Positions 8,426 to 52,960 of a stretch of 64,000 nucleotides of DNA are shown piece by piece. The notes beneath the pieces are model-generated. The model was not told where the DNA came from. It did not search any database and saw only the letters and a list, made by a program, of their open reading frames with translations. A program made the translations under genes and the position numbers. Position 1 is the first letter of the stretch, and each line of letters opens with the position of its first letter. Source of the DNA: Falsiroseomonas stagni DSM 19981 (GTDB lineage Bacteria; Pseudomonadota; Alphaproteobacteria; Acetobacterales; Acetobacteraceae). The stretch lies in assembly GCF_900114315.1 (NCBI RefSeq), contig NZ_FOSQ01000004.1, positions 135,725 through 199,724 on the forward strand, in the 5' to 3' direction.

Positions 8426-9128
8426 CGCCACCGCGATGCTGCAAGTGCGCGACCTGGAAGCCTGGTATGGCGAAAGCCATGTCCTCCACGGGATGAATAT
8501 CGACATCCGGCAGGGGGAGGTGGTGACGCTGCTCGGCCGGAACGGCGCGGGCAAGACCTCCACGCTCCGCGCCATCATGGGCCTCACCGGCCGCCGCACC
8601 GGGTCCATCAAGTTCGAGGGGCGGGAGATGCTGACCCTCCGCCCCGACCTGATCGCCCGCGCCGGCATCGCCTATTGCCCGGAGGAGCGCGGCATCTTCG
8701 CCTCGCTCGACGTGACGGAGAATCTGATGCTGCCCCCGGTGATCGCGCCGGGCGGCCTGAGCCTGGAGGAGATCTACACCCTCTTCCCCAACCTCAAGGA
8801 ACGCGCGCGCAGCCAGGGCACGAAGCTGTCGGGCGGCGAACAGCAGATGCTCGCCATCGCGCGCATCCTGCGCACCGGCGCGCGGCTGCTGCTGCTGGAC
8901 GAACCTTCGGAAGGCCTCGCCCCCGTCATCGTCCAGCAGATCGGCGCCATGATCCGCAACATCAAGCAGCGCGGCTTCACCGTGCTGCTGGTGGAGCAGA
9001 ATTTCCGCTTCGCGCAGACCGTCGCGGACCGGCACTATGTCGTCGAACACGGGCGCGTCGTGGATGAGGTGGCGAACCATGAACTCACCGCCAGCCTCGA
9101 CCGCCTGCACGAATACCTGGGCGTGTAA
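8418..9128 (+). CDS. livF: Branched-chain amino-acid-type ABC transporter ATP-binding protein LivF
   Basis: A 236-residue ATPase of normal LivF length. Walker A reads GRNGAGKT, the signature LSGGEQQMLAIARIL and Walker B LLLLDEPSEGL. The family-typical segment YCPEERGIFASLDVTENL follows the first half. The ATG at 8418 overlaps the end of livG. The TAA stop lies in the loop of a small perfect hairpin (9117-9134). It pairs with LivG to energise import through LivH and LivM. Confidence 0.93.
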   Translation: MADATAMLQVRDLEAWYGESHVLHGMNIDIRQGEVVTLLGRNGAGKTSTLRAIMGLTGRRTGSIKFEGREMLTLRPDLIARAGIAYCPEERGIFASLDVTENLMLPPVIAPGGLSLEEIYTLFPNLKERARSQGTKLSGGEQQMLAIARILRTGARLLLLDEPSEGLAPVIVQQIGAMIRNIKQRGFTVLLVEQNFRFAQTVADRHYVVEHGRVVDEVANHELTASLDRLHEYLGV

Positions 9129-9134
9129 GCCCAG
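9117..9134 (+). terminator. Stop-codon-enclosing hairpin at the end of livF
   Basis: CTGGGC (9117-9122) pairs perfectly with GCCCAG (9129-9134). The 6-base loop GTGTAA contains the TAA stop. No T-tract follows, so read-through into the receptor gene is expected. Its role may be mRNA processing or stability. It belongs to the series of stop-spanning palindromes in this window. Confidence 0.4.
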
Positions 9135-9173
9135 TCGGCCGGTTCACCTGGACCCCCATCGGAGGAAGCAAGC

Positions 9174-10424
9174 ATGAGTCTCGACCGCCGTTCCATCATC
9201 AAGGGTGCCGTCGGCGCCGCCACGCTGCCGGCCCTCGGTGGCCTGCCCTATCGCAGCGCCCGCGCGCAGGCCGCGAACACCATCCGCATCGGCGTGCTGA
9301 ACGACCAGTCCGGCCTCTATCGCGACATCTCCGGCCCGGGCTCCACCCACGCCGTGCAGATGGCGGTGCGGGAATCCGGCATCACCCAGCGCGGCATCAA
9401 TGTCGAAGTCGTGCAGGCGGACCACCAGAACCGCCCCGATGTCGGCTCCACCGTCGCGCGCCAGTGGTACGACCAGAACGGCATCGACGTGATCGTCGAT
9501 GTGCCGACCTCCTCCGTGGCGCTCGCCGTCAGCACCATCACGCGGGAGAAGAACAAGCTCTTCATCAATTCCGGCGCCGCGACGTCGGACCTGACGGGCT
9601 CCGCCTGCTCCCCCAACACCATCCACTGGACCTACGACACCTACATGCTCGCCAAGGGCACGGGTGGCGCCATGGTGGCGGCGGGCGGCCGGACCTGGTT
9701 CTTCATCACGGCGGACTACGCCTTCGGCCATGCGCTGGAACGTGACACGACCGCCTTCGTCAACGCCGCCGGGGGCCGCGTGCTGGGTGGCGTCCGCACG
9801 CCCTTCCCGGGCACGACGGACTTCTCCTCCTTCCTCCAGCAGGCGCAGCGGTCCCGCGCCAATGTCATCGGCCTGGCCAATGCGGGCGGTGACACGATCA
9901 ACTCCATCAAGCAGGCGGCGGAATTCCGCATCACCCGCGGCGGCACCAAGCTCGCCGGCCTGCTGGTCTTCGTGACCGACGTCCACTCGCTGGGCCTCGA
10001 AGTCGCGCAGGGCCTGGTCGTGACGGAAAGCTTCTACTGGGATCTGAACGACCGCACCCGCGCCTTCACCCAGCGCCTCGGCGCCACGCCGGGCAACCTC
10101 CGCCCCTCCATGGTGCAGGCCGGCTGCTATTCCGGCGTGCTGCATTACCTGAAGGCAGTGGCGGATATGGGCGTCGCGGCCGCCAAGGCCAGCGGCGCGG
10201 AAGCCGCTAACCGCATGAAGGCGATGCCGACCAGCGACGATGCCTTCGGCGAAGGCACGGTCCGCCCCGACGGCCGCAAGGTCCACCCGGCCTATCTGTT
10301 CGAGGTGAAGACCCCCGCCGAAAGCCGCGGCGCCTGGGACTACTACAAGCTGGTCTCCACCATCCCGGCGAACGAGGCCTTCCGCCCGATCACCGAGGGT
10401 GGCTGCAGCCTCGTCCGGTCCTGA
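9174..10424 (+). CDS. Branched-chain amino-acid-type ABC transporter substrate-binding protein (LivJ/LivK family)
   Basis: A 416-residue periplasmic receptor of the type I fold (Peripla_BP_6). A Tat-like leader with DRRSIIKG and a cleavage site after about residue 33 (ARAQA) precedes the mature start IRIGVLNDQSGLYRDISGPG, which is the canonical ligand-loop start of the family. GGAGGAAGCAAGC precedes the ATG. The C-terminus has VKTPAESRGAWDYYKLVST, seen in receptors of the urea/short-chain-amide branch; a ligand other than branched-chain amino acids is therefore quite possible. A strong terminator 8 bases after the stop probably gives it an excess of transcript over the permeases. Confidence 0.9.
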   Translation: MSLDRRSIIKGAVGAATLPALGGLPYRSARAQAANTIRIGVLNDQSGLYRDISGPGSTHAVQMAVRESGITQRGINVEVVQADHQNRPDVGSTVARQWYDQNGIDVIVDVPTSSVALAVSTITREKNKLFINSGAATSDLTGSACSPNTIHWTYDTYMLAKGTGGAMVAAGGRTWFFITADYAFGHALERDTTAFVNAAGGRVLGGVRTPFPGTTDFSSFLQQAQRSRANVIGLANAGGDTINSIKQAAEFRITRGGTKLAGLLVFVTDVHSLGLEVAQGLVVTESFYWDLNDRTRAFTQRLGATPGNLRPSMVQAGCYSGVLHYLKAVADMGVAAAKASGAEAANRMKAMPTSDDAFGEGTVRPDGRKVHPAYLFEVKTPAESRGAWDYYKLVSTIPANEAFRPITEGGCSLVRS

Positions 10425-48712: not shown

Positions 48713-48733
48713 CGGAGATCGTTTCGATTGTTC

Positions 48734-48763
48734 TTGATTTATCCCCAAAAATAGGCATATAGT
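48734..48763 (+). promoter_or_regulatory. Promoter of the muramidase/secreted-paralog islet
   Basis: TTGATT (48734-48739), 18-bp spacer, TATAGT (48758-48763). The 60 bases 48721-48780 contain 24 G+C (40 percent by my count), far below the flanks. GGGAG (48779-48783) is the ribosome site, 7 bases before the ATG at 48791. It is the most consensus-like promoter in the window and marks the left edge of the accessory islet. Confidence 0.7.
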
Positions 48764-48790
48764 CCGCATCAACCTTCTGGGAGTTTTGGG

Positions 48791-49591
48791 ATGCCGACGC
48801 TGCCCATCAACGAAGCCGCCTTGCGCGAAGCCATGCGCGATCGCCGCTACTGGCAGCCCGGCCATCCCGAACGGGAACGCTACGGTGCCTGGGTGACGGA
48901 GGGTTGGCAGGCGCTCGTCGCCGCGCCGGACCAGGGCGCCGACACCGTCGTCCATGTTCGCGCCTACGAACGTCGCGGGCCGGATGGCGACGTCATCCAG
49001 GTCCAGGCCCACACCCGCGGCGCGCCGCCAAGGCCCTGGGAGAACCAGCCCAATCCGGAATGGCGGGCGCAGATCGCGCGGGAGGAAAGCGACAGGGATG
49101 GCGGTGACCATGGCTATGGTCTCCGGGGACGGACGAACCTGGACGCGCTCGGGCGGTATCAAATGACTCCGGTAGCTTTGCGAGCAGCGAGGTGGCGGGA
49201 CAGCCAGAACCGCTGGTCTGCGCGAGCACGCGCGGCGGGTGTCGCCAGTGATGCCGACTTTCTCGCCAACCCCTCGGCGCAGGAGGCCGCCCTCAACGAC
49301 TATCTGCGCGACAACGAAAGTCAGATGCGTGCTCTGGGTGTATGGTCACGCATCGGTGGAAGTGTGGAGGGCATGCGTGACGGTCCCGTTCCCATCACGG
49401 CGAGCGGGCTGGCCGCCGCTGCGCACCGCGAAGGACCCGAAACCGTCCGCAGGTATCTTGCGCATCGAGATCAGCGACTACCGATCCCGCCATCCGTCAC
49501 TGGGCGCGGCGATCTGTCAAAATTCAACCAGGTCGAGGCGCGGCTGCGAAATTTCGCCGCTACGCCCTTCGGCGGTGGCCTGTCTCGATGA
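48791..49591 (+). CDS. Lysozyme-fold (muramidase-like) protein without signal peptide; candidate secreted effector
   Basis: A 266-residue protein. Residues about 1-78 form an N-terminal module (LREAMRDRRYWQPGHPERER, then VVHVRAYERR and VQAHTRG) that resembles segments next to phage or secretion-associated enzymes. The lysozyme-like domain follows: Glu98/Glu99 in AREESD as candidate catalytic acid, LDALGRYQM (118-125) like the GRYQ box of goose-type/transglycosylase folds, NPSAQEAALNDYL, and GLAAAAHREG. No Sec or Tat leader is present, so it would need a dedicated secretion route, lysis, or act inside. First cistron of the islet, coupled by ATGA to a secreted protein. Muramidase identity is inferred from motif pattern. 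Confidence 0.65.
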   Translation: MPTLPINEAALREAMRDRRYWQPGHPERERYGAWVTEGWQALVAAPDQGADTVVHVRAYERRGPDGDVIQVQAHTRGAPPRPWENQPNPEWRAQIAREESDRDGGDHGYGLRGRTNLDALGRYQMTPVALRAARWRDSQNRWSARARAAGVASDADFLANPSAQEAALNDYLRDNESQMRALGVWSRIGGSVEGMRDGPVPITASGLAAAAHREGPETVRRYLAHRDQRLPIPPSVTGRGDLSKFNQVEARLRNFAATPFGGGLSR

Positions 49592-50157
49592 GGTGCAGCG
49601 CCGTCGCCCTCCTCGCCACATTCACCCTCATCGCCGCCACACCCGCCGGCGCGTCCGATCGGCTTCGCTGGCAGGTCGTCCCCCCATTGGTCGTGGAGGC
49701 GCTTGAGGCACTCCGCAACTCGGATGAAAGCCTGGGCGAGGCGATCACGCGCAACCTGGATGGCCCTGTCACCGGCCGGGACACGGAGGCCGGACGCTCG
49801 CTGAACTTCGACCCATCATCGCAATTGAGCTGGGCTGTGACCGACCTCAATGGCGATGGCCGCGCAGAGGTATTCCTGCTGTTCTTCATCCCCACCGGGA
49901 CGGCAGCGCCACCGGGCGTGGTCATGCAGCGCCACGGCGATGGCTGGCGGGTCGCGTGCGAAATCGCCGATCCCGGCCTGATCAGCCGCGGAAGCCACGC
50001 CGTTCCGGGCCTGATCCAGCTGCTGCCCGCCCGCACACAGGGTTGGCGCCATTTCCGCGTCTTCTCCGGCAGCTATGGCTGGTACCCCGCGCCCGACGCG
50101 CCGGGCGCCATGAACTGCGCGCCGCTGCCATTGGGGACGGAGATGCGGCGACGATGA
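49588..50157 (+). CDS. Secreted protein, paralog 1; candidate periplasmic immunity protein
   Basis: A 189-residue protein with a Sec signal peptide (MRCSAVALLATFTLIAATPA, cleavage near GASD). A DLNGDGRAE loop (86-94) matches a DxNxDGxxE calcium-binding or FG-GAP-like turn. Cys124 (VACEI) and Cys177 (MNCAP) are conserved in the paralogs and probably form a disulfide. GWRHFRVFSGSYGW (152-165) is the most conserved block. It starts inside the stop of the lysozyme-like gene (ATGA) and is followed by two further paralogs. A role as inhibitor of the lysozyme-like protein is inferred from order and compartment only. Confidence 0.6.
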   Translation: MRCSAVALLATFTLIAATPAGASDRLRWQVVPPLVVEALEALRNSDESLGEAITRNLDGPVTGRDTEAGRSLNFDPSSQLSWAVTDLNGDGRAEVFLLFFIPTGTAAPPGVVMQRHGDGWRVACEIADPGLISRGSHAVPGLIQLLPARTQGWRHFRVFSGSYGWYPAPDAPGAMNCAPLPLGTEMRRR

Positions 50158-50729
50158 TCCGGCTGGCCCGCATCTCTGTCTGCATCGTGGCAATGACCAT
50201 CCAGCCCGCCTCCGCGCAACGCCTTCCCTGGTTCGGCGTCGATCCGCTCGTCGCCGATGCTCTTGGTGCCTTGCGCGAGACCGATCACTGGATCGCTACC
50301 GCCATCAAGCCTTTCCACCCTCCAACCGTGATTGAGGGCCGGGATGATGGTGCGGCAATTCCCTCATTCGATCCCACCCAGCATCTGCGCTACCGATTGG
50401 TTGACATGCGGCCAGGCACGCCGCGCGCCGTGTTCCTTCTCCTTGCCTGGCACAGCATCTCCGGCAACGGCCCATCCCCCGGCGTGATCATGCAACAGGT
50501 GGTGACAGCCGCCGGCCGACGCTGGCACATCGCCTGCGAGTTCCGGGACTACGGCCTTTCCCTCACGCTCCTTGATCGCCGCAGCCATGGCTGGCGGCAT
50601 TTCCGCGTGGCCTCGGGCGAATACGGCTGGCGCCCCGCCACCTTCACGCCGGACGCGCCGTTGCCGGGAGGGGCCCCAGAAGGGGCCATGGAATGCGTTC
50701 CCCTGGTTCTGACGGAGTTCCCGCCATGA
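50154..50729 (+). CDS. Secreted protein, paralog 2; candidate periplasmic immunity protein
   Basis: A 191-residue protein coupled by ATGA to paralog 1. Signal peptide MIRLARISVCIVAMTIQPAS, cleavage near SAQR. It shares the QRLPW start with paralog 3, the FDP box, the HGWRHFRVASG block and Cys128/Cys181 with both relatives. It has lost the calcium-type loop (VDMRPGTPR in its place). Residues 52-71 show no identity to paralog 3 in an otherwise gap-free alignment, a candidate specificity surface. The sequence beyond residue 124 is almost the same as in paralog 3. Confidence 0.6.
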   Translation: MIRLARISVCIVAMTIQPASAQRLPWFGVDPLVADALGALRETDHWIATAIKPFHPPTVIEGRDDGAAIPSFDPTQHLRYRLVDMRPGTPRAVFLLLAWHSISGNGPSPGVIMQQVVTAAGRRWHIACEFRDYGLSLTLLDRRSHGWRHFRVASGEYGWRPATFTPDAPLPGGAPEGAMECVPLVLTEFPP

Positions 50730-51306
50730 TGGCGACGGCCGCCGTCTTCCGCGCCGCACTTGCCCTGTCACTGGCCATCCCGCCCGCCGCCGCCCAGCGC
50801 CTCCCCTGGTCCAGCATCGACCCGAAAGCCGCCGTCGCGCTCCGCGCCTTTCGCCAGACCGATCATTGGGTGGCCGAGGCGTTGGAAGACAACTACGATG
50901 GCGAACGGCTGGGCCGGCACACGGAAGAACGCCGGTCGTACAATTTTGACCCCGCCTCCGATCTCCGCTACCGCGTGGTCGGGATGCGGCAAGGCGCGCC
51001 GCCCGCCGTCTTCCTTCTGTTCGAATGGTCGCCAGTACGCGGCAATGCGAGGCCCCTGGCTTCGTCATGCAGGAAATCGTGACGGCGACCAGCCGACGAT
51101 GGCACATCGCCTGCGAGTTCCCGGACTACGGCCTCTCCCTGACGCTCCTCGACCGCCGCAGCCATGGCTGGCGGCATTTCCGCGTGGCCTCGGGCGAACA
51201 CGGCTGGCGCCCCGCCACCTTCACGCCGGGCGCGCCGTTGCCGGAAGGGGCCTTAGAAGGGACCATGGAATGCATCCCCCTGGTCCTGACGGAATTCCCG
51301 CCGTGG
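50726..51306 (+). pseudogene. Secreted protein, paralog 3, broken by a frameshift and stop-codon loss
   Basis: Starts by ATGA overlap at 50726 with a signal peptide ending AAAQR. The reading frame is intact to about residue 107 (GNA at 51041-51049). One base is missing there relative to paralog 2: the first frame then ends at 51082 while the homologous C-terminal half (PGFVMQEIV onward) continues in another frame. At the family end EFPP the TGA of paralog 2 is TGG here (51304-51306), so that frame runs on, antisense into the mocA-type gene. Both lesions argue for a decaying copy; a sequencing error could explain only the first. Confidence 0.75.
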
Positions 51307-51313
51307 CGCCCGC

Positions 51314-52960
51314 CTACTTCTTCCCCGCGAATTCCGGCAGCCCCTTCAGGCTCTCCGTCGTGTCGAAGTCGCGCAGCACCGCGTCATTCGCCATCTCCAC
51401 ATCCACCAGGCGATCGGCATGCTTGCCCGCCAGGTGCCGCGCGCCGACATCGCCGGAGATCGCCAGCATCTGCGGCAGGAATTCCCGGCTCCACAGCATC
51501 GGGTTGCCCTGCTTGCCGCGATAGGTCGGCTGCACGATGGCGCGGCCTTCCTCCGGATCGAAGGCGTTCAGCAGCCGGTCCAGCATCGGCGCCGTCACCA
51601 GCGGCATGTCGCCGAGGCAGACCAGAACCCCCTCCGCATCCGGCGGCACCGCCGCCAGCCCGGCCTTGAGGCTGGCGGACAGCCCCTCGGAATACCCTTC
51701 CGCATGGGCGAACAGCACCGGGCGCCCCGCCAGCGCCTCCTCGATCCGCTCCCGCTCATGCCCCGTCACGACGATGACCGGGGAGGCATGGGACGCCAGC
51801 GCATTGTCCACCACGCGCAGGATCATCGGCAGGCCCTTGGTATCGGGCACCAGCAGCTTGTTCAGCGGCGCCATGCGGCGCGAACGCCCGGCCGCCAGCA
51901 CCAGCGCGCAGACCTTGCGCGCGCGGCGCGGCGCCGTCGCGGGCGGCGTCACGCGGGGCGCATCGGCGCGGGGCAGGGGGCGGGCCTCGATCTCCTTCAG
52001 CAGGCCGCCGACCCCCATGCCCATCACCTCCCGCGCCGTCACGCGGCGGCCGGCGAAGATGCGCGCCAGCACCCAGTCGAAGCCGTTCAGCTTCGGGCTG
52101 CGCGCGCAGCCCGGCAGCACCAGCGCCGGGATGTCGCCGATCCGGCCGAGGCAGATCAAATTCCCCGGATCGACCGGCATGCCGAAATGCTCGATCACGC
52201 CGCCGGCGCGGACGATCGCCGCCGGCCCGATATCCCGCCGGTCCACCACGGCCGACGCCCCGGCCACCAGCAGCAAATCGGCCCCCGCCTTGCGCAGCCG
52301 CGTCAGCGCTTCCGCGACCGGCCCTTCCTCATGCCGCACGCGTTCCACCGGCAGCATGGTGCCGAGCAAGCCCTTGATGCGCGCCTCGGTCGCCTCGACC
52401 GCGCCCTCCATCACGCTTTCCTTGATGCCCGGCAGTTCCGTCAGCACCAGGCCGACGGAGAGCGGCTGGAAGGGATGGATGGCGATGCCGGCGCGGCCGC
52501 GGGCCATCGCCTCGACGACCTGAAGCACGCGCCCGGGGCTGGAGAAGGGGATGACCTTGATGGTGGCCAGCATCTCCTTCGCTGCCACCACGGAATTATT
52601 GGGCAGGGTGGCGACGGTGACGCTTTCATCCACCGCGTTGATGCGGTCGATGAGGCCCGCATCCACGGTGAACAGCCCGGCGCTTTCCGCAAACAGGTTA
52701 ACCCGCCCCGTCGCCGCGCGGGACTTGGCGACAAGGGGCGCCATCAGCGCATCCGCCACGCGGTCCGCGGCCTCATCCTCCGGCACATCGCCGGCTTCCA
52801 TGCGGGCGGCGATGACGTCGCGCTTGCCGGCTTCCCGCAGGGCCGCGATCGCGCCCTCATCCAGCACCGTGCCCTTCTTCAGGACGCGGCCCGCCAGGCG
52901 GACGGTATGCGCCAGCACGGCGCCCTTCGCTTCATCCAGCGGTGTCGGCCCGAAGATCAT
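51314..52960 (-). CDS. MoeA-like / MocA-type fusion: molybdenum cofactor cytidylyltransferase
   Basis: A 548-residue fusion. The N-terminal part (about 1-335) is a molybdopterin-binding, MoeA/CinA-like domain (starts FGPTPLDEAKGAVLAHTVRL, contains LLLVAGASAVVDRRDIGPA). The C-terminal part (about 345-548) is a MocA/MobA NTP-transferase starting ALVLAAGRSRRMAPLNKLL, with GDMPLV as the metal/nucleotide motif and GNPMLW. It would attach CMP to molybdopterin for xanthine-oxidase-family enzymes. Last gene of the cox-type maturation operon; starts in an ATGA overlap with the XdhC Rossmann gene. Confidence 0.88.
   Translation of the reverse strand: MIFGPTPLDEAKGAVLAHTVRLAGRVLKKGTVLDEGAIAALREAGKRDVIAARMEAGDVPEDEAADRVADALMAPLVAKSRAATGRVNLFAESAGLFTVDAGLIDRINAVDESVTVATLPNNSVVAAKEMLATIKVIPFSSPGRVLQVVEAMARGRAGIAIHPFQPLSVGLVLTELPGIKESVMEGAVEATEARIKGLLGTMLPVERVRHEEGPVAEALTRLRKAGADLLLVAGASAVVDRRDIGPAAIVRAGGVIEHFGMPVDPGNLICLGRIGDIPALVLPGCARSPKLNGFDWVLARIFAGRRVTAREVMGMGVGGLLKEIEARPLPRADAPRVTPPATAPRRARKVCALVLAAGRSRRMAPLNKLLVPDTKGLPMILRVVDNALASHASPVIVVTGHERERIEEALAGRPVLFAHAEGYSEGLSASLKAGLAAVPPDAEGVLVCLGDMPLVTAPMLDRLLNAFDPEEGRAIVQPTYRGKQGNPMLWSREFLPQMLAISGDVGARHLAGKHADRLVDVEMANDAVLRDFDTTESLKGLPEFAGKK

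Follow-up and report, generated by a model that had tools for sequence, protein, structure and literature searches.

A lysozyme-fold member of a polymorphic toxin family in Falsiroseomonas stagni whose N-terminal domain resembles the tail of a presumed phage scaffolding protein

The closest published system that we know of to the toxin-like gene E of Falsiroseomonas stagni DSM 19981, which lies in a 64,000-nucleotide stretch (the window; G000:C27:135725-199724) of a 6.38 Mb genome in 44 contigs, is the MuF family of temperate phages. In the sections of the original report drawn upon here, MuF toxins carry polymorphic domains, Ntox50 among them, on a head-morphogenesis module, are mostly followed by small presumed immunity open reading frames (ORFs), and are proposed to be delivered by the phage particle (Jamet et al. 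2017, PMC5576092). For phage P22, the excerpts cited describe a C-terminal helix-turn-helix of the scaffolding protein that anchors on the coat at the inner face of the procapsid, and scaffold-fused cargo that is encapsulated in vivo (PMC9965877, PMC9962691). Gene transfer agents (GTAs) of Alphaproteobacteria are summarised in the portions cited as phage-derived particles encoded by a compact, conserved structural cluster and released by lysis (PMC9662315, PMC6821227, PMC9632790); one of these sources, in the part used here, reports RcGTA-like clusters in 0 of 34 operational taxonomic units of Acetobacterales (PMC6821227). Here we compare these systems with E, its putative immunity genes and a podovirus-like gene cluster of the same genome.

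E almost certainly belongs to a family of polymorphic toxins, in which a common N-terminal domain (N-domain) is joined to unrelated C-terminal domains and accompanied by fitting immunity genes, toxicity being predicted. A search of its own genome with E retrieved three further genes that share only approximately residues 2-87 with it, and whose C-termini are unlike one another. One sibling (L005) encodes a GH24 lysozyme (Phage_lysozyme, E-value 7e-30; the domain also scores with Pesticin) followed by a secreted LprI-family protein (E-value 4e-10); the remaining two (L006 and L007) possess other C-terminal domains with no Pfam match and are followed by two and one leaderless ORFs, respectively. 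With a profile built from 11 N-domains (A1), the domain was detected in 27 of 397 family genomes at an E-value of 1e-10, including weak or fragmentary cases in G011, G102 and G204. Further C-termini include Ntox50 (L096, E-value 2e-13), a lipase-like type that has the motif GHSWG and only sub-threshold Pfam matches, found beside lipoprotein-like partners, and a 'YRLxDGR...RY' type, termed nuclease-like by eye only, whose immunity-like partners, of about 210 aa, form one family and stand in up to three tandem copies (L108); others occur as well. Only GH24 and Ntox50 pass the Pfam cut-offs, the other C-terminal domains being assigned by eye, by weak matches or, for E, by fold. An immunity-like gene follows the N-domain gene in most loci read and is often missing beside shortened toxin genes; judged by eye, the partner is secreted for lysozyme-type toxins and leaderless for nuclease-like ones, neutralisation being putative. 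For L079, L081, L090, L102 and L103 the pattern search yielded no ORF, and the N-domain match rests on the profile or on tblastn. Three records are labelled as lying outside the family: L096 (a Hyphomonadaceae metagenome-assembled genome, MAG) and the alphaproteobacterial MAGs L102 and L103. The first-pass annotation had regarded E and its neighbours as an isolated, possibly new enzyme-immunity pair; the idea of an isolated pair is not supported, E being one member of this large family.

Three additional observations concern this family. At L041:6060-7913 (G000:C30) another match to the N-domain covers profile positions 25-77, without the beginning of the domain, and two immunity-like ORFs come after it. 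At L107:4728-6292, a lipase-like N-domain gene and a lipoprotein-like partner lie in the tail-gene region of a different type of prophage. About 3 kb downstream of the L006 toxin, an ORF (approximately 8800-9228) has an amidase-like end, which we take to resemble BPSL0067-like amidases of the type VI kind.

The weaker matches of profile A1 fall at the C-terminal end of another protein, whose gene stands between those for portal and coat in a compact podovirus-like cluster; because of that position, it is read as the scaffolding protein. In E the matching segment spans approximately residues 8-45. When N-domains (22 of 24 kept) were aligned with 16 scaffolds by hhalign, the match covered scaffold columns 215-255 of 256 with a probability of 97.8 and an E-value of 1e-12 (for one comparison). 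A similar end is found in a Pelagibacter phage homologue and is absent from the gene preceding the coat in Dunaliella virus SI2. By analogy with P22, as described in the excerpts cited above, the segment may address toxins to the procapsid; here it is N-terminal and sits on natural toxins, and the likeness to P22 is one of description.

In F. stagni the cluster occupies L040:1254-15025 (G000:C22) and is accompanied by a divergent S24-type repressor. PHROGs name its coat (matching major head PHROGs 3437 and 267), head-tail adaptor, large terminase, tail, internal virion and endolysin genes, and holin-like, hydrolase and DUF952 genes are also included. The gene order is that of the F. stagni cluster in all 24 other loci, for the genes found there; in some of these loci the holin, the hydrolase or DUF952 went unmatched, and the L108 locus is truncated. 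Visual inspection of four gene lists (L040, L073, L075 and L108) showed no integrase or replication gene. Within the genus, the ratio of nonsynonymous to synonymous proportions of differences (pN/pS) of eight cluster genes is 0.03-0.45 (three comparisons, rough 5' trimming). Of the best 80 of 225 IMG/VR coat loci, 33 are on contigs of 11.8-13.9 kb, the longest contig reaching 21.5 kb, sizes that fit a short element, not a whole phage. Like GTA clusters, this one is compact and conserved, the particle and any DNA transfer being putative; it differs in its coat, which is related to those of Pelagibacter and Vibrio phages at less than 60% identity.

Toxin-immunity cassettes are also found inside the cluster, between scaffold and coat. 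The gap between these two genes measures 7-419 bases in 22 of 24 loci, and both exceptions contain such cassettes. One is G237, on a contig that matches Neoroseomonas nitratireducens PWR1 (L073/L101); the other is an IMG/VR contig (L108/L211). Among the best 80 of the 225 IMG/VR coat records, both genes were obtained in 74; an N-domain cassette occurred in one of these (L211, which is contig L108 again) and a GNAT-like gene in two. In the latter two (L198 and L200) an acetyltransferase-like ORF takes the place that toxin cassettes have in two other records, so that cargo genes may insert at this gap. Like MuF toxins, in the published description used here, N-domain proteins combine polymorphic toxin domains, including Ntox50, with a virion-assembly-type module, mostly have a presumed immunity ORF next to them and are proposed to be delivered by particles. 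The module differs, however, in consisting of the scaffold-tail-like segment and a second conserved part with no MuF domain; moreover, most N-domain genes are found away from the particle cluster, and the particle looks domesticated. E is not a MuF protein: it matches neither PF04233 nor PF06152, nor any other Pfam family up to an E-value of 10, and the in-cluster genes lie between scaffold and coat rather than directly downstream of the portal of a temperate phage.

The coat gene is present in all 27 N-domain genomes and in 111 of the 397 family genomes, two of which have a second copy at an E-value of 1e-60; with a looser cut-off, two more of 150 genomes (G044 and G047) show a second, distant coat match. 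Counted by genus, the coat is present in 9 of 9 with the N-domain versus 23 of 102 (naive probability 4e-7); since all 13 sampled members of the F. stagni genus carry the coat, these counts are not phylogenetically independent. The viral contig L107 and the coat contig L191 share an IMG genome number.

The first-pass annotation had instead likened E to cell-wall-degrading effectors such as those of type VI secretion; on that reading the N-domain would be a trafficking marker and E a Tge/Tae-like effector with periplasmic immunity. Muramidases with tandem immunity are known among type VI effectors, E is leaderless, its presumed immunity proteins are secreted, and the F. stagni genome holds a type VI cluster (L042, G000:C30:675000-694900) with VgrG-, Hcp-, ClpV- and sheath-like genes recognised by eye and two matches to the sheath protein VipB. 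Nevertheless, VipB occurs in 13 of the 27 N-domain genomes versus 79 of 150 in the baseline (Fisher p 0.68; the samples share some genomes), and is absent from the near-complete N-domain genomes G322, G236, G361 and G095, the last of which keeps a GH24 toxin and an overlapping LprI-like ORF. Around L043 and L045-L048, inspection of the gene lists by eye revealed no type VI structural gene, L048 containing a ClpB-like gene. For the type VI modules MIX, FIX, RIX and PAAR, E gave no Pfam match, though some of these markers may lack Pfam models. Overall, the expected link did not hold, and we consider a type VI effector unlikely.

E comprises the N-domain (approximately residues 1-79) and a C-terminal domain that is modelled with a lysozyme/Slt fold. 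Its GRYQ box (residues 121-124) is invariant and Glu99 nearly so in an alignment of 41 sequences, E included, so that the fold and motifs proposed from the first inspection of the sequence were upheld by model and conservation alike. With its catalytic Glu, the modelled domain is placed in the lysozyme superfamily (GH23/Slt-like), and peptidoglycan cleavage is predicted. It shares fold, Glu and GRYQ-type box with the GH23 lytic transglycosylases MltE and Slt, from which it is set apart by the lack of a Pfam match, the lack of a leader and its toxin context; no Foldseek match for the E model was obtained at an E-value of 0.001 or better. Compared with its L093 homologue, E is 95% identical in the N-domain (proportion of synonymous differences, pS, 0.18) and 73% in the C-terminal domain (pS 0.68), a contrast that is, at the sequence level, the mosaic expected of polymorphic toxins.

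The locus of E lies outside any phage-like cluster (Table 1). Leaders were judged by eye: E has none, and I1 and I2, which are 38% identical, each have a Sec-type one. The initial description of the window stands for the leaderless 266-residue ORF and for the AT-rich patch 5' of it (GC 0.436 across 48713-48790). Of the three secreted, coupled paralogs then proposed, the ATGA overlaps (at 49588, 50154 and 50726) and the leaders of I1 and I2 are confirmed, while the third copy proves broken, its frames split. The frame of its second half has no stop at the equivalent C-terminus and reads into the convergent gene at 51314-52960, beyond I3; an intact relative is found in Roseomonas ponticola (L094:7241-7885).

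Table 1. Features of the E locus, in window coordinates
Feature	Position	Strand	Description
Upstream patch	48713..48790	+	AT-rich; imperfect LexA-type box, with two mismatches, lying some 61 bases 5' of the E start codon
E	48791..49591	+	Predicted polymorphic toxin, 266 aa; proposed-address N-terminal domain and lysozyme-fold domain
E residues 8-45	48812..48925	+	Match to the C-terminal end of the phage-like cluster's presumed scaffold
E residues 54-79	48950..49027	+	Latter half of the N-domain, conserved; modelled with two strands
E residues 80-261	49028..49573	+	Slt/lysozyme-fold domain (modelled) with Glu99 and GRYQ box
I1	49588..50157	+	Candidate secreted immunity protein, 189 aa; ATGA overlap with E
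I2	50154..50729	+	Candidate secreted immunity protein, 191 aa; ATGA overlap with I1
I3, first piece	50726..51082	+	Leader and N-terminal half of broken third copy
I3, second piece	51025..51306 (about)	+	C-terminal half, in a different frame and without a stop where one is expected

The anticipated pairing of such an enzyme with this secreted partner family recurs in other genomes: relatives of I1 and I2 adjoin lysozyme-type N-domain genes in L093 and L094, and in G237 (L074) such a gene lies beside a single secreted ORF made of two fused copies of the I1/I2-type protein. P0047 with P0005 is a further presumed case of a secreted partner family beside such a toxin. Protein searches returned only four homologues of I2, its predicted structure is weak, and neither I1 nor I2 matches PF07007, the LprI-type lysozyme inhibitor family represented by the partner of the L005 sibling. 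E, I1 and I2 very probably form a toxin-immunity module, in which I1 and I2 would neutralise E. E could also be a helper of the particle itself, an internal virion hydrolase for crossing the cell wall, with I1 and I2 guarding the producer during assembly. Podoviruses do carry internal transglycosylases, T7 gp16 for example, and the fold and proposed capsid address of E would suit this role; it is nonetheless very unlikely, given that the same tag also occurs on Ntox50, on lipase-like and on nuclease-like domains, whose partners differ, and that most N-domain loci are away from the cluster and found in only a minority of the genomes with the coat. Least probable of all is a capsid-sensing defence, whereby the tag would bind the coat of an incoming phage and unleash the toxin as an abortive-infection trigger, I1 and I2 being the antitoxins. 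Such a role would accord with a tag that resembles a presumed coat-binding element and with the presence of Ntox50, known from other toxins, on the same tag; yet secreted I1 and I2 imply a periplasmic target, out of reach for a leaderless lysozyme in the same cell, and tandem and broken immunity copies suggest competition.

The cluster and many toxins may share SOS control. The motif GTTCN7GTTC, given as the LexA box of Caulobacter in the portion of the report cited (PMC12700426), occurs exactly in 18 of 25 cluster promoters (shuffle mean 0.08) and in 9 of 24 toxin upstream regions (shuffle mean 0.15). These 24 are the toxin genes with a start codon placed, several of them non-independent orthologues; L079, L081, L084, L090, L102 and L103 were left out of the set. 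Only two of 121 control genes have an exact box, in both cases the same site, next to a UvrD-like gene. The occurrence of such boxes before several toxin genes would also suit a soluble, SOS-induced bacteriocin of the pesticin or colicin kind, freed by lysis without any particle and using the N-domain for uptake, as would the Pesticin score of the GH24 member and the paired immunity. An N-domain of 80 residues is short for both receptor binding and translocation, however, and the match to the scaffold tail, the presence of the coat in 27 of 27 genomes and the cassettes within the cluster all speak against this alternative, which we regard as rather improbable.

We lean towards reading E as a peptidoglycan-cutting polymorphic toxin whose shared N-domain imitates the presumably coat-binding scaffold tail of a domesticated podovirus-like cluster, and delivery of such toxins by the domesticated particle appears reasonably probable. 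DNA damage would switch on the cluster and several toxins, and the tag would bring toxin into assembling procapsids. The holin-like and hydrolase genes of the cluster would then lyse the producer, and particles might attach to a neighbouring cell and eject the toxin. There E would cut peptidoglycan in the periplasm, where I1 and I2 would let related cells survive.

Several points weigh against this reading. The presumed scaffold owes its name to its position, its PHROG match being phrog_3742, a family with no assigned function, and coat binding by the scaffold-like tail and packaging of toxins are presumptions by analogy. A cassette lies inside the cluster in just one of the 27 N-domain genomes and on one viral contig, and at the threshold used 84 of the 111 coat-positive genomes lack the N-domain. 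The coat-positive genera may form one clade, and therefore represent few independent events. One N-domain record, L096, a 3 kb contig, is labelled Hyphomonadaceae, several N-domain genes are truncated, and F. stagni itself holds a type VI system. Finally, the box before E departs from the LexA-type motif at two positions, and neither of the cassettes inside the cluster has an exact box itself.

More broadly, the evidence is evenly poised on whether a podovirus-like particle has been kept in part of the Acetobacteraceae as a programmable toxin carrier, with an N-terminal scaffold-tail address for packaging, swapped C-terminal domains, tandem immunity arrays and SOS control of the particle and many toxins. 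If this is true, it would link the purpose of domesticated phage particles that have been kept with the exit route of toxin-immunity cassettes that have no evident secretion system; the N-domain offers a short, testable address tag, and GTA-like particles would carry weapons, besides or instead of DNA.
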